Assembly (NCBI RefSeq): GCF_020551945.1
Contig: NZ_JAJBZH010000001.1
Location: 252,108-316,107, forward strand
DNA from: Cellulosimicrobium marinum
GTDB lineage: Bacteria > Actinomycetota > Actinomycetes > Actinomycetales > Cellulomonadaceae
Length of the DNA: 64,000 bases
Reading direction: 5' to 3'
Position numbers and translations under genes: made by a program. Under the pieces are notes generated by a model, which saw only the letters and a program-made list of their open reading frames with translations, was not told where the DNA came from and ran no database searches. Below are positions 4,866-62,712 of this stretch, one piece after another. Within the stretch, counting starts at the first letter, position 1. Every line of letters starts with the position of its first letter.

Positions 4866-5942
4866 TCAGCGCGGGACGACGCGCCCCGCGAGATGGAGGC
4901 GGCCACGCCGGTCCCAGGCCTCGTAGGCGAGACCCGTGCCCGGGTCGCCCGCGCCGTCGGACACCGCCGCCGCGACCTGCCCGACGGCGCGCCGCACCTC
5001 CGCGGGGGCGGACCCCGCCGGGCGCAGCGCGACGTCGACCGTGCCGGGCAGCAGCACCGGCGCGGCGAACGAGACGGTCCAGTCGTACGTCTCGCCCCGC
5101 GCCGGCCCCGCCTCGGCGAGCGCCCGCGCGGCCGTGTACATGCCGTGCGCGATAGCCCGCGGGAACCCGAACGCCTTCGCCCCCAGGGACGACGTGTGGA
5201 TCGGGTTACGGTCGCCCGACACGGCCGCGTACGCGCGACCCGTCCCCGCACCGAGCGACCAGCGGGCCGTCGGCAACGGCGGGACGAACGCGCCGCCCCG
5301 CGGGGCCTCCTCCTCCGCGGTCGGGACGCCGAGGTCGACCCCCTTCGCGAGGTACGTCGACACGCCCCGGTACGCGAGCGTCGTCGCAGGCAGCCCGGAG
5401 CCCCCCGCGCGCTCTGCGTCCGTGCGCTCCACCGACACCTCCGTGACGAGGTCCACCCGGGCGCCCCGGCGGTGCGGCCGCAGGTCCTGCGCCCACGACC
5501 GCACCTCGAGCGAGTCCCCGAGGCGCACCGGCCGCACGAGCGACACCGAGTTCGCCAGGTGCACCATCCCGAGCAGCGGCAACGGGAAGTCACCACGCAC
5601 CATGAGCGCGGTCGCCAGCGGGAACGCGAGCACGTGCAGGTACCCGGCCGGCAGCAGCTCCGACGGCGCCTCGCCCACCACCTCGCCGTACCGCGCGACG
5701 TGCTCCGCGCTGCCGGGAGCCCCCGGCTCCGCGTCGTCGCCCGTCCGCACCCCGGCCACCCGGTACGTCACGTCCGGCAGCACCAGGTCGGGCCCGCGAC
5801 CACCGGGGAGCCGGCGCGCCGCCGCGAGCCGGCCCGACGCCGCGACCCCCCGCACGTACAGACCGCCGAGACCCGGGACGGCCGGCAGCGTCTCGACGCG
5901 CGCCGGCGCCCCGACCGCCCCGGGGACGCCCGCGCCCGTCAC
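4866..5942 (-). CDS. MaoC-like (R)-specific enoyl/3-hydroxyacyl dehydratase
   Basis: A 358-residue double-hotdog hydratase. The catalytic hydratase-2 signature SGDRNPIH, followed by a downstream Ala, sits in the C-terminal half with the catalytic Asp/His pair. The N-terminal half is a decayed hotdog, as in actinobacterial proteins that pair with FabG4. The expected reaction is reversible hydration of a trans-2-enoyl thioester. Its GTG start overlaps the TGA of the reductase gene by four bases, the third such link in the thiolase-reductase-hydratase operon. Together the three could perform the thiolysis, ketoacyl reduction and dehydration steps of beta-oxidation or of its reversal. Direction and chain length are not visible. 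Confidence 0.82.
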   Translation of the reverse strand: MTGAGVPGAVGAPARVETLPAVPGLGGLYVRGVAASGRLAAARRLPGGRGPDLVLPDVTYRVAGVRTGDDAEPGAPGSAEHVARYGEVVGEAPSELLPAGYLHVLAFPLATALMVRGDFPLPLLGMVHLANSVSLVRPVRLGDSLEVRSWAQDLRPHRRGARVDLVTEVSVERTDAERAGGSGLPATTLAYRGVSTYLAKGVDLGVPTAEEEAPRGGAFVPPLPTARWSLGAGTGRAYAAVSGDRNPIHTSSLGAKAFGFPRAIAHGMYTAARALAEAGPARGETYDWTVSFAAPVLLPGTVDVALRPAGSAPAEVRRAVGQVAAAVSDGAGDPGTGLAYEAWDRRGRLHLAGRVVPR

Positions 5943-7498
5943 CGGCCCACCAGGTTCTGCCCGCACACGCGCAGCACCTGACCGTTCACGCCCGCCGCAC
6001 CCGGCGACGCGAGGAACGCGATCGCCTCCGCGACGTCGACCGGCTGGCCGCCCTGCTGCAGCGACGCCACCCGTCGCGCCACCTCGCGCGTCACGAACGG
6101 GATCGACGCCGTCATGTCCGTCTCGATGAACCCCGGTGCGACCGCGTTCGCCGTCCCGCCCGTGCCCTGCTCGTCGAGGAGGCGCGCGAACGCGCGCGTG
6201 TGCCCGATCACGCCCGCCTTCGAGAACGCGTAGTTCGCCTGCCCGCGGTTCCCCGCGATACCGCTCGTCGACGCGAGCGACACCACACGCGGCGCCCCCG
6301 AGAAGCCGTTCGCCCCCAGCAGGTACTCCGTGATCCGCAGCTGCGCCGCGAGGTTCACCGCGACCACCGCGTCCCACTTGTCCGCAGACATGTTGGCGAG
6401 CAGCTTGTCGCGCAGGATCCCGGCGTTGTGCACCAGCACGTCCAGACCGCCGTGCCGCGCCCGCGCGTGCTCGAGGATCCGCGCGCCCGCGTCGTCGGCC
6501 GTCACGTCGAGCTGCAGCGCCGTGCCGCCGATCTCGTTCGCCACCGCGGCGAGCGACTCGCCCGCAGCCGGCACGTCCACGACGACCACCTTGGCGCCGT
6601 CGCGCGCCAGCGTCCGGGCCACCTGCGCACCGATCCCGCGCGCGGCCCCCGTGACGACCGCGACCTTCCCCGCAAGGGGGTGCTCGGGTCCGACGGTGTC
6701 GGGTCCGGCGGGGGTGGCGGCGTCGGGTCCGGCGGGGGTGGTGGGCTCGGGTCCGGCGGGGGAGGCGGCGTCGAGGCTCGGGCTACCATCCGGAGCCCTC
6801 GTTCCTCGGGCTCCTCCCGCCAGGCCCGCCACGCCCTTCGCCTCCGACGCCGCCGCCCCCGCCTCGGCGGCCGTCTCGCCTGCCGAGGGAGAACCCTGGT
6901 CGACGCCTGAGGGGTCGCCGACGCGCAGGAGCTGGCCGTCGACGAAGGCGGACTTCGCGGAGAGGAAGAAGCGGAGCGTCGCGAGGGCGCTGGGGCTGTC
7001 GACGGCGGCGCCGTCGGTGAGCTGGACGCCGTTGCCGGTCGCGCCGTAGCGCAGCTCCTTGGCGACGGAGCGGAGGAACCCGTCGACGCCCTCGCGGGCG
7101 GCGGCGAGCTCGGGGGCGTCATCGGCGCCGGGAGCGCGGGAGACCGTCACGACGCGCCCGTTGGGAGCGAGGCGTCGCAGGTTCGCGGACAGCGCCATGA
7201 CGGGCGCGGAGGTGTCCTCGGGGCGCTCGATGCCGCTGAGCACGACGACGATCGCACCCCACCGGGCCTGGTCGTCCGGGGACTGGCGGACGTCGAGGTC
7301 CCAGGCGAGCAGCGCCGTCGCGACGCGGTCCGCGTCGTCGTGCACGCCGGGCGTCCCGCCGAGGACGAGCACCGGCCCGACGGTGAGCGGGTCGCCCGCG
7401 CGGTGGCGGCGCAGGGCGGCGGGGCGCGGCAGGCCGAGCTTCTTCGCGAGGGTCTTGGTGAAGCCGGAGTTGACGGCCTTGACGTAGGAGTCGGTCAC
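5939..7498 (-). CDS. fabG4: 3-oxoacyl-thioester reductase, high-molecular-weight FabG4 type
   Basis: A 519-residue two-domain short-chain dehydrogenase. The N-terminal 210 residues form a flavodoxin-like domain (GPVLVLGGTPG, then an Asp/Ala-rich region). The C-terminal 250 residues are a classical SDR with the NAD(P) motif TGAARGIGAQ, HNAG, and a catalytic Ser/YAFSK pair. This architecture is that of the actinobacterial FabG4 reductases, which reduce 3-oxoacyl-CoA with NADH. The domains are joined by a Pro/Ala/Gly linker made from an 8-residue tandem repeat (6698-6769). GTG at 7498 has an AGAGGA site upstream. An in-frame GTG at 7531, overlapping the thiolase stop as GTGA, is an alternative start. 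It overlaps the MaoC gene downstream. Confidence 0.85.
   Translation of the reverse strand: MTDSYVKAVNSGFTKTLAKKLGLPRPAALRRHRAGDPLTVGPVLVLGGTPGVHDDADRVATALLAWDLDVRQSPDDQARWGAIVVVLSGIERPEDTSAPVMALSANLRRLAPNGRVVTVSRAPGADDAPELAAAREGVDGFLRSVAKELRYGATGNGVQLTDGAAVDSPSALATLRFFLSAKSAFVDGQLLRVGDPSGVDQGSPSAGETAAEAGAAASEAKGVAGLAGGARGTRAPDGSPSLDAASPAGPEPTTPAGPDAATPAGPDTVGPEHPLAGKVAVVTGAARGIGAQVARTLARDGAKVVVVDVPAAGESLAAVANEIGGTALQLDVTADDAGARILEHARARHGGLDVLVHNAGILRDKLLANMSADKWDAVVAVNLAAQLRITEYLLGANGFSGAPRVVSLASTSGIAGNRGQANYAFSKAGVIGHTRAFARLLDEQGTGGTANAVAPGFIETDMTASIPFVTREVARRVASLQQGGQPVDVAEAIAFLASPGAAGVNGQVLRVCGQNLVGR
6698..6769 (-). repeat. Three 24-bp in-frame repeats in the FabG4 linker
   Basis: Three adjacent 24-bp units begin at 6698, 6722 and 6746 and differ at only a few positions. 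They encode eight-residue Pro-Ala-Gly-Pro units between the two domains of the reductase. Because the unit is a multiple of three, copy-number change would lengthen or shorten the linker without a frameshift. Confidence 0.85.
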
Positions 7499-14918: not shown

Positions 14919-15995
14919 TCACGGACGTCCTGGACCTCCATTGGACCGCGCCGGGGTCCTGGCCGCCACGGCGATCCGGGGCGTGTCGCGGCGCAGCACG
15001 CCGGTGGTGATCGCGACGCCCAGGAGGAGCACGACGCCGCCGGTCGCCTCGGCCGGGTTCGGCACCTCACCGAGCACGAGCCACGCGGCGAGGATCCCGA
15101 CGGGAGGGACGAGCATCGTGAAGGGCACGACCGCCGACGCCGGGTAGCGCGCGAGCAGCCCGTTCCAGACGCCGTACCCGACGAGGCTCGCGAGCCACGC
15201 CGTGTACAGCGTGGACAGCACGGGGGCGAGCGTCAGGTGGGTGAGGGCGTGCCCGACGGCGTCCGGCCCGTCGACCCAGAGCGACAGCCCGAGCAGGGGG
15301 ACCGGCACGACGAGCGCGGACCAGACGGTCATCGACAGCCCGTCCGCCCACGCGGGCGCACCGCGCCGCCCCCGCGAGGGAGCACCCCGGTCGCGCGAGG
15401 TAGAACGCTGGTCACGCGAGGTAGAACGCTGGTCACGCGAGGTAGAACGCTGGTCCCGCGAGGTAGAACGCTGGTCCCGCGAGGTAGTACTCCGGTCACG
15501 CCTGCCCGCCCGGCGCGCGACGACGTTCCCGACCGCCCACGACGACGCGGCGGCGAGGGTGAGCAGGAAGGCGAGCGCCGGCGTCGTCTCGCTGCGGCCG
15601 AGACCGACGACGAGGAGGCCGAGCGCCCCGACGACGACCCCGACGACCTGGCGGCGTGTCGGCGACTCGCGCAGGGACAGGGCGGCGAAGAGGACGGTGA
15701 GGCCGACCTGCGCCTGGAGGACGAGGGAGGCGAGGCCGGGCGGCATGCCGAGGGACAGCGCCGTGTAGAGCAGGCCGAACTGGCCGAGGCTCATGAACAG
15801 GCCGACGAGCAGGACGTCGCGCCACCGGGCGGTGGGGCGCGGGACGAGGAAGATCGCGGGGACGAGCACGACGGCGAACCGCAGGGCGACGAAGAGCGTG
15901 GGCGGCAGGTCGCCGAGGCCGAGGTCGATGACGACGAAGTTCGCTCCCCAGAGCACGGCGACGAGGGTCGCGAGGAGGGAGGGGCGCAGGGGCAT
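14919..15995 (-). CDS. EamA/DMT-superfamily exporter with repeat insertion
   Basis: A 358-residue drug/metabolite transporter with the usual two EamA halves of five helices each. Half one starts LLATLVAVLWGANFVVID; half two ends LGEVPNPAEATGGVVLLLG, the EamA signature. Between them, after TM5, is a 50-residue hydrophilic insert made of repeats of SRDQRST encoded by the 21-bp array at 15374-15499. Family members normally have a short loop there. The gene diverges from a LysR regulator, a common pairing in which the regulator controls the exporter. Amino acids or related metabolites are the usual cargo of LysR-linked members; this is inference. Confidence 0.82.
   Translation of the reverse strand: MPLRPSLLATLVAVLWGANFVVIDLGLGDLPPTLFVALRFAVVLVPAIFLVPRPTARWRDVLLVGLFMSLGQFGLLYTALSLGMPPGLASLVLQAQVGLTVLFAALSLRESPTRRQVVGVVVGALGLLVVGLGRSETTPALAFLLTLAAASSWAVGNVVARRAGRRDRSTTSRDQRSTSRDQRSTSRDQRSTSRDQRSTSRDRGAPSRGRRGAPAWADGLSMTVWSALVVPVPLLGLSLWVDGPDAVGHALTHLTLAPVLSTLYTAWLASLVGYGVWNGLLARYPASAVVPFTMLVPPVGILAAWLVLGEVPNPAEATGGVVLLLGVAITTGVLRRDTPRIAVAARTPARSNGGPGRP
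15374..15499. repeat. Six 21-bp tandem repeats inside the EamA gene
   Basis: Six units start at 15374, 15395, 15416, 15437, 15458 and 15479. The four central ones share GCGAGGTAGAACGCTGGTC. The outer two are a second type, GCGAGGGAGCACCCCGGTC and GCGAGGTAGTACTCCGGTC. The same two unit types recur between genes at 62671-62712 with identical 21-bp phasing. Inside the gene they read in frame as SRDQRST-like heptapeptides on the minus strand. Confidence 0.92.
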
Positions 15996-61054: not shown

Positions 61055-62653
61055 GTGCCCGACACCCTCGTCCGCCGCGTCCTGTTCCCCGGCCGGCACC
61101 ACCTCGTCACCCGTTTCCAGGTCGACTACCTGCGTGCGCTGCGCGCCGGCCTCGTCCACGACCTCGACGGGCACCGTGTCCGGTGCGCGCCCGACGTCGA
61201 GGTGGTCTGGGCGGTCACGTCCGCGAACCACTCCGGCACCCGGCGCAACCCCCTGCCGGGCCACCGGCGCGAGGCGCTGATCGAGAACGTCGCGGTCCGC
61301 GAAGGGTTGCCGGGCGTCGTCGTGCCGGTGCCCGACGTCGCGCCCCACCCCCGGTTCGCCGCGCTCGTGGTGACGAGCGTCGCCACGCAGACCGGCCGCG
61401 CCCCGACCCCGGACGACACGGTCGTGGCGTGCTCCACGCCCGCCGTGGTCGCCGCGTACCAGGACCTCGGGTTCCGGGTCGTGGGTGTCGAGCTCGACGT
61501 GGCCGACGGCGCCGACGCCGCGCCCCGGCCGTGGGACGCCGTCGAGCTCCTCGCCGCCGGCGACGCGCGCTGGCACGACCTCGCGCACCCCGCCGTCCCC
61601 GAGTTCTACGCCCGCTACGGCCTCGTCGAGCAGGTGCGCGAGATCTTCGCCGACCCCGTCGTGTCCGGCGACGGCGACCTCACGACGACGCGCGACTACC
61701 GCACGTACGCCGCCGCGTTCGAGGAGGCGTCAGCGCGCAAGTGGGCGCAGGTCGCGCCGCACGTGCGCCCCGGGCGCGTCGTCGACATCGGCTGCGCGAC
61801 GGGCGGCCTCCTCGAGCACGCCGCGCGCGAGCCGCGCCTGCACGAGTCCGACCTGTTCGGCGTCGACGTCGCCCGCCACCTCGTCGCCGAGGCGGAGCAC
61901 AAGAAGGCGCAGGGCGTCTTCGCGAACCCCAACGTGTGGTTCGTCCAGGCGAACATCCTCGCCCGGTCCGTCATGCCCGCCGCGTCGGTGGACACCACGC
62001 TGACGATCGCGCTCACGCACGAGGTGTCGTCGTACGGCGACGGTGTGCGCGACGTCGAGACGTTCGCGCGACGCGTGCACGACCACACGCGGCCCGGCGG
62101 CGTGTGGGTCAACTCGGACGTGTGCGGGCCCGCGGAGCCGGCCCGCGCCGTCGTGCTCACGCTGCGCACGGACGACGGCCTGGGTGCGCAGGGCGACGGG
62201 CCGCACGGGGCGCGCACGGATCTCGGCTCGCTCGCCCGCGAGGACGTCGCCGCGTACGTCGGCGCGCTGTCGACCGACGCGCGCATGGCGCAGTTCGCGC
62301 ACGACTTCCCCCGGTCCTCCGGCGCGCTCTTCGCGCCCGCGGCGCTCGGCGGCGGGCGGTGGCGCCTCACGCTGCGCGAGGCGATGGAGTTCATGACGCG
62401 CAAGGACTACGTCGACAACTGGCTGTCCGAGGCCCACGAACGGTTCTGCGACCTCACCGGGGCGGGGTGGGCCACCCTCCTGGAGGACGCCGGCTTCGTC
62501 CTGGAGCCGGGCAGCGGCGCGTGGCGCAACGCGTGGCTCGTCGAGCACTCCTTCGCGCCCGTCGCCGCGCTGCACGACGCCGTCACGGGCGAGCCCGTCG
62601 ACTGGCCCGACACCCACGTCCTCACCGTCGCCCGCCGCCCCGAGCTCGCCTGA
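61055..62653 (+). CDS. Nucleotidyltransferase-like/SAM-dependent methyltransferase fusion
   Basis: A 532-residue protein. The C-terminal half (about residues 225-500) is a class I methyltransferase, with SAM motif I VVDIGCATGGLLEHA and TRPGGVWVNSDVCGP. The N-terminal 160 residues look like a nucleotidyltransferase fold of the NMN-adenylyltransferase type: RRVLFPGRHHLVTRFQVDYL in the place of GRFQPFHxGH, then VWAVTSANHSGTRRNPLPGH and RREALIE in the place of the SAQxSHTxxNPFTAGER block. The HxGH pair is altered (HHLVT), so catalysis there is uncertain. Several starts are possible (61019, 61049, 61055). Function unknown; RNA or cofactor modification is a guess. Confidence 0.68.
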   Translation: MPDTLVRRVLFPGRHHLVTRFQVDYLRALRAGLVHDLDGHRVRCAPDVEVVWAVTSANHSGTRRNPLPGHRREALIENVAVREGLPGVVVPVPDVAPHPRFAALVVTSVATQTGRAPTPDDTVVACSTPAVVAAYQDLGFRVVGVELDVADGADAAPRPWDAVELLAAGDARWHDLAHPAVPEFYARYGLVEQVREIFADPVVSGDGDLTTTRDYRTYAAAFEEASARKWAQVAPHVRPGRVVDIGCATGGLLEHAAREPRLHESDLFGVDVARHLVAEAEHKKAQGVFANPNVWFVQANILARSVMPAASVDTTLTIALTHEVSSYGDGVRDVETFARRVHDHTRPGGVWVNSDVCGPAEPARAVVLTLRTDDGLGAQGDGPHGARTDLGSLAREDVAAYVGALSTDARMAQFAHDFPRSSGALFAPAALGGGRWRLTLREAMEFMTRKDYVDNWLSEAHERFCDLTGAGWATLLEDAGFVLEPGSGAWRNAWLVEHSFAPVAALHDAVTGEPVDWPDTHVLTVARRPELA

Positions 62654-62670: not shown

Positions 62671-62712
62671 CCGAGGTAGAACGCTGGTCGCGCGAGGGAG
62701 TACCCCGGTCGC
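62671..62712. repeat. Two 21-bp repeat units between genes
   Basis: One unit of type GAGGTAGAACGCTGGTC (62671-62691) and one of type GAGGGAGTACCCCGGTC (62692-62712), in the same 21-bp phase as the six-copy array inside the EamA gene 47 kb away. It lies 17 bases after the fusion gene's stop. Confidence 0.9.

Follow-up and report, generated by a model that had tools for sequence, protein, structure and literature searches.

A 21-bp repeat of Cellulosimicrobium behaves as a candidate REP/BIME-like element at gene ends

By following a 21-bp tandem repeat (R) from an EamA-family transporter gene to the rest of its genome and to other genomes, we found a family of directional arrays that lie mainly at gene 3' ends and are only occasionally read as protein. 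We propose that R units build up a REP/BIME-like intergenic family, present in Cellulosimicrobium and in at least one sister genus, and that this family would act at transcript ends, as DNA or as RNA. Such a transcript-end role is the most likely function for a gene-end element of this kind, and we give this reading about an even chance. The window, that is, the whole 64,000-nt stretch of DNA that was analysed (positions 252108-316107 of contig C1 of the 3.83-Mb genome G000), holds R at three sites, one of them beside a long hairpin that we call H:

14919..15995, minus strand: EamA-family transporter gene, 358 aa from its ATG, which carries the array below
15375..15497, plus strand: six-unit R array (GAGGGAGCACCCCGGTC, four times GAGGTAGAACGCTGGTC, GAGGTAGTACTCCGGTC), antisense to the EamA gene
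62672..62710, plus strand: two R units, intergenic, 19 bp past the stop of the upstream plus-strand gene (which ends at 62653)
5939..7498, minus strand: gene of a FabG-like short-chain dehydrogenase, whose dehydrogenase domain (aa 278-512) is preceded by R and H
6884..6901, plus strand: one R unit, antisense to the dehydrogenase gene and read in frame as DQGSPS
6798..6827, plus strand: H core, a long hairpin with the 11-nt loop CTCGTTCCTCG, inside the dehydrogenase gene

The six in-frame units of EamA and the two further units between genes had both been described in the original prediction and were recovered here, while the third site, with its R unit and H core 86 bp apart (start to start), was absent from it. 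In the EamA array, the 18-mers start at 15375, 15396, 15417, 15438, 15459 and 15480, with an exact 21-bp period, and none of the other TRF rows for the window (131 in all) reaches its score of 188. The gene reads the array in frame as RDQRSTS heptads (DQRSTSR phase), the insert covering aa 167-207; the EamA domain is matched twice in the protein (best stretch 7-130), and a longer GTG start reaches 16070.

Searching the whole genome, we found the core CGAGGKAGNRCNNNGGTY at 221 places with up to one mismatch, compared to 16 for the control, and CGAGGTAGAACGCTGGTC at 75 places with up to three mismatches, compared to 2 for the reversed pattern, which bears out the expectation of further copies elsewhere in the genome. 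A chance origin of R is ruled out by these control counts. Within the window alone, a looser motif with 3 mismatches gave 27 matches, no excess over the shuffle mean of 27.4, so that only exact matches stand out there. For the anatomy of the arrays we used a 454-kb sample of G000, which includes the window and is made of loci fetched for holding R or H, with genes called by a simple model made for this analysis. At a score of at least 11 there were 236 hits (5 for the reversed control); those below 16 were dropped and the 215 units kept form 84 directional tandem arrays, in which adjacent units are spaced by exactly 21 bp in 108/131 cases and by 20 bp in 15/131. We also noticed that contigs C2, C7 and C12 of G000, as well as several contigs of G004, end within a few hundred bases of R or H; the elements thus seem to interrupt assembly, and the copies may be undercounted.

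In the 18-bp core, 13 positions are conserved at 0.85-0.99 and five (6, 9, 13, 14 and 18) at 0.36-0.66, a contrast that is partly built in since the motif itself was used to find the units, and the 3-nt spacer between cores is conserved at 0.41-0.48. Whereas the first spacer base matches about as often between neighbouring units (0.38) as between units of different arrays (0.37), the other two match more often between neighbours (0.54 and 0.55 vs 0.33 and 0.39), which we read as a mark left by local duplication. GTAG occupies positions 5-8, preceded by CGAG, with T6 present in just 0.66 of 221 units. The consensus has GGT at positions 4-6 and 15-17, so that within an array GGT recurs every 11 and 10 bp. 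Positions 9 and 14 are strictly linked: T14 accompanies T9 in 0/111 units and A9 in 69/89, a dependence that persists when one unit per array is taken (p at most 5e-11; 84 arrays, 215 units). When T9 is present, position 14 is a mix of A, C and G, so that the link is not accounted for by simple descent from a single subfamily; no stem joining the two positions was seen by hand.

Mapped relative to genes, as had been proposed along with the original prediction, the arrays lie mainly at gene 3' ends. In the G000 sample, 77/84 are outside called genes, and R is present in 22/68 convergent, 26/241 tandem and 1/59 divergent intergenic gaps (convergent vs rest, p 3e-6; divergent vs rest, p 0.003). 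The gene upstream is on the same strand as the array in 58 cases and on the opposite one in 18. Of the placements at most 60 bp from a gene 3' end, 46 point away from the gene and 16 toward it; at the same distance from a 5' end there are 11, of which 6 point away and 5 toward. Moreover, the TAG of an R unit is itself the stop codon of the same-strand upstream gene in 18/58 cases, and TAG stops are found in 22/46 genes with R at most 60 bp downstream vs 26/339 others (p 1e-10). We also analysed contiguous stretches that were not chosen around R, namely 400 kb of G012 and 369 kb of G009. The position and orientation bias is weaker there than in the G000 loci, and the numbers are small: the upstream gene is on the same vs the opposite strand in 8 to 4 cases (G012) and 10 to 5 (G009), and R is found in 3/60 convergent, 3/203 tandem and 0/60 divergent gaps of G012 and in 3/61, 6/194 and 1/62 of G009, whose motif model is loose (17 control hits vs 125).

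One junction could be followed across the genus. The threonine aldolase gene was located in 17 genomes and is convergent with a hydrolase gene in 6 of them, 5 of which hold R between the two genes, in layouts going from one inverted pair to R3-H-R1. In these five junctions the aldolase stop is a TAG supplied by R or by an R-like unit. In the other 11 genomes the aldolase gene has another neighbour, and there is no R at that end of the gene. At locus L187 (G005:C1:851049-852170), we observed an in-frame TAG near the end of the threonine aldolase; the matched aldolase stretches of the other 16 genomes have no internal stop.

Arrays are often paired. An inward-facing inverted partner lies within 330 bp for 40/84 arrays of G000, leaving 44/84 without one, and the 20 inward pairs are separated by 2-3 bp (5 pairs) or by 29-256 bp (15 pairs). 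Many of the wider spaces hold H, and 34/84 arrays lie at most 320 bp from an H core. When two tail-to-tail paired stretches were folded, both beat all 200 shuffles (z -10.1 and -4.3); the stretch folded around the H core of the window is 6760-6860 (z -4.3). In contrast, the plus strands of single-orientation stretches folded no better than shuffles (z +3.0, +0.5 and -1.0); for the EamA array, the plus strand folded worse than all 200 shuffles and the EamA-sense strand gave z +0.1. As judged from these three single-orientation stretches, a single R unit is not a palindrome able to fold as a stem-loop. Since unpaired arrays are common and direct arrays fold no better than shuffles, a hairpin terminator cannot explain everything.

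H is a second dispersed element, whose long hairpin has an 11-nt loop that hardly changes and stems that vary in sequence and are mostly complementary. The loop is the same in 26/32 copies. Twenty different inner stems occur, and the outer arms, roughly counted, have 7 to 34 pairs; G000 has 25 exact copies, and H was found in 4/149 genomes of the order sample, G000 among them (further example loci: L119, L120 and L126). By eye, a compound R-H-R of ~330 bp is nearly identical at L119, L120, C8:153057, C8:247655, C2:68165 and C12:170015 of G000, as if it were copied as one unit; two of these loci are cut by contig ends, and the likeness fades outward within the R arrays. A tRNA or a known RNA family within the elements was considered and rejected, as 10 loci gave no match to Rfam at its gathering threshold and 19 loci gave no tRNA.

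R was found in 17/17 Cellulosimicrobium genomes, at 21 to 536 places each (controls, 5 to 19), a ~25-fold range of copy number among species in which the lowest counts are near control (21 vs 8 in G015, 30 vs 7 in G003). Exact matches were also present in 2/42 sampled genomes of other genera, G026 and G034. The first, from a sister genus, has 92 places vs 12 for the control and 11 tail-to-tail pairs, and its adjacent same-strand units are spaced by 20 bp in 17/17 cases; the second has 26 places vs 7, without evident arrays. At syntenic sites of G012 and G009, the number of units differs (4/1, 9/4 and 4/2, respectively) in flanks that are 92.6 to 96.3% identical, as they also are at other shared arrays, and a three-unit array of G009 (B 34223) has no R array at the corresponding G012 site; this comparison left out some arrays, for want of a flank match or of synteny, as well as the single weak hits of G009, which resemble coding background. 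Such shifting unit numbers fit local slippage or duplication. The motif itself also shifts between genomes. By exact A:G counts, position 10 leans to A in G000 (72:4), G005 (162:9) and G013 (66:1), leans to G in G002 (3:98), G016 (13:109), G012 (16:106) and G006 (41:162), and is mixed in G004 (133:64) and G001 (46:90). This lean could come from gene conversion, from respreading or from co-evolution with a reader.

In the G000 sample, seven arrays are in frame inside six proteins: EamA, the SDR dehydrogenase, a P-type ATPase, HemD, a xanthine-dehydrogenase-like protein (two arrays) and a 2Fe-2S thioredoxin-like (NuoE-type) protein. None of the seven overlaps the best Pfam stretch of its protein, and 6/7 are antisense to the gene and read in the DQ(G/R)S(T/P)S frame. 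Among arrays within called genes of G012 and G009, which were not inspected individually, 5 are antisense and 3 sense. The best EamA relatives are mostly Cellulosimicrobium records, on which we base the assignment of the window to this genus. The insert is present, with 2 to 7 units, in 9/12 Cellulosimicrobium-type orthologues (L031-L042). Conservation in distant EamA proteins, which would have spoken against the original prediction, is not seen: none of 68 more distant loci has an array, L101 and L108 showing one isolated match each with at most 2 mismatches. We noticed that L039, a record titled Sphaerisporangium cinnabarinum ATCC 31213, has a Cellulosimicrobium-type EamA with five R units, so its label may be wrong. 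In the SDR dehydrogenase, R (up to 3 mismatches) is present in 8 of the 15 species in which the linker was found and absent in 7, one further locus being unresolved and G001 giving just a distant match. We propose that the intragenic copies, that of EamA included, are passengers: 21 bp make seven codons, and one antisense frame gives DQ(G/R)S(T/P)S, a hydrophilic heptad free of stops. The period and this frame would together offer a gene-end repeat a route into proteins.

We also looked for a source of mobilisation. The Y1 (RAYT-type) transposase domain PF01797 was found in 0/17 genomes of the genus, the control giving 5/14, and a very divergent enzyme could escape such a search; mobilisation by a recognisable Y1 enzyme was rejected on this ground. 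Viral contigs contained neither exact two-unit R arrays nor exact H cores, and a phage origin was rejected to that extent. The original prediction had offered slippage or a small mobile element as a source of the repeat; slippage agrees with the varying unit numbers, and the mobile half found no backing in these searches.

To account for these observations, we propose that the basic module would be a tail-to-tail pair of R units, 2-3 bp apart, that lies between convergent genes. It would form a hairpin-forming palindrome, and the TAG near each outer end could serve as the stop of the flanking gene. In Cellulosimicrobium, local tandem duplication may have extended one or both sides of this module into directional 21-bp arrays, which would often come to surround H. 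Because paired stretches fold strongly and single-orientation ones do not, the pairs between convergent genes are good candidates for two-way transcript ends, and the paired form may end or insulate transcription between neighbouring genes. The unpaired arrays need another reason. They may be kept through recognition of the 18-bp motif, probably as double-stranded DNA on one helical face; both the motif-like conservation and the period, close to two helical turns, suggest that DNA is what is recognised.

Against this transcript-end proposal, R could be a selfish miniature mobile element (REP-like or the end of a non-autonomous transposon) with no host function, whose position at gene ends would reflect harmless insertion sites. 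We regard this as possible, if doubtful. Such an element would be expected at high copy number, nearly absent from divergent gaps and at times inserted in proteins, as R is, and it would fit a GTAG tag resembling that of the GTAG REPs (PMC3733652), the near-identity by eye of the ~330-bp R-H-R compounds at several G000 loci and the G009 array that is absent at the G012 site. However, several arrays occupy syntenic sites in these two genomes, PF01797 has no match in the 17 genomes and matches in 5/14 of the control, and viral contigs hold no two-unit array. Nor would the selfish reading lead one to expect a conservation so sharply position-dependent, even allowing for the use of the motif in finding units, or the dependence between positions 9 and 14. 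Alternatively, the arrays could be sites for a protein that binds DNA at gene 3' ends, loading cooperatively on phased half-sites, with a role in the nucleoid or in topology; the hairpins would then be a by-product of having sites on both strands. The periods of 21 bp in G000 and 20 bp in G026, both about two helical turns, the return of GGT every 11 and 10 bp, the exclusion of T14 by T9 and the many unpaired arrays are consistent with such a protein, as is the genome-wide lean of position 10 (G000 and G005 vs G002 and G012, for example); but gene conversion or respreading could produce the same leans, copy number differs ~25-fold between species, and we consider that this explanation is rather unlikely.

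The last reading takes the heptapeptide as a selected linker module and the intergenic copies as its decayed remnants. It would explain the common frame of 6/7 intragenic G000 arrays and the retention of the EamA insert in most orthologues of the genus, but just 7/84 arrays are inside called genes, the others being oriented to gene ends, the dehydrogenase has R in about half of the species compared, and 3/8 intragenic arrays of G012 and G009 are sense. In addition, a 20-bp period, as in the sister-genus genome G026, cannot keep a reading frame. We thus find a peptide module very improbable, disfavoured by array location, period and sense copies. Since arrays lie mostly outside genes, are mostly antisense when inside (6/7 in G000) and have this 20-bp period in the sister-genus genome, the DNA or RNA rather than the peptide is likely the object of selection, in agreement with what the original prediction held.

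More speculatively, and with little confidence on our part, the arrays may make up a genus-specific chromosomal code at gene ends, in which half-sites phased about every 10.5 bp would load a candidate cooperative protein and separate neighbouring, above all convergent, transcription units. If so, hundreds of sites would co-evolve with one protein, and this would account for the A/G lean at position 10, the strict rule linking positions 9 and 14 and the choice of 20 or 21 bp at two turns. Whichever reading holds, R offers a compact and countable system for the function of REP-like repeats, with hundreds of oriented sites, natural variation in unit number, a motif that shifts genome-wide from one species to another, and genomes in which no Y1 transposase was found.

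Known repeat systems resemble R in part. In the Cellulosimicrobium repeat literature, judged by title or the start of the abstract, we found no work on such repeats, and the main text of the GTAG REP paper (Di Nocera et al. 2013; PMC3733652) has no word beginning with 'actinobacter'. According to section 15 of that paper, GTAG REPs are situated at gene 3' ends in convergent or unidirectional gaps, frequently provide TAG stops and are sometimes intragenic (PMC3733652). R is like them in being short, of high copy number, downstream of coding regions and often in opposite-orientation pairs, and it shows the same location at 3' ends in convergent or unidirectional gaps; GTAG REPs are 20-40 bp palindromes tied to RAYT transposases (PMC3733652), while a single R is not a palindrome, forms direct tandem arrays with a constant 21-bp period and occurs in genomes without a Y1 match (17 searched). 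With single units that do not fold as palindromes and no Y1 enzyme found, R behaves as a REP/BIME and is not filed as a member of the GTAG REPs. BIMEs are bound by IHF, gyrase or Pol I. Like them, R shows repeated modules in alternating orientation with regular spacing (in part after PMC2817692), and the mosaic is seen in the 40/84 arrays with an inward partner and the 34/84 near an H core; unlike in BIMEs, the modules here are R arrays, some of them around the long hairpin H. The Rickettsia palindromic elements likewise lie both between genes and inside unrelated proteins, but they are palindromic and come from another phylum, whereas the coding copies of R in G000 are mostly antisense direct arrays. 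These Rickettsia elements are named in section 15 of PMC3733652. Finally, R varies in unit number as tandem VNTRs do, both between G012 and G009 and among the EamA orthologues, and it shares with the mycobacterial MIRU, whose units are longer, the character of an actinobacterial tandem repeat at gene junctions with variable copy number.
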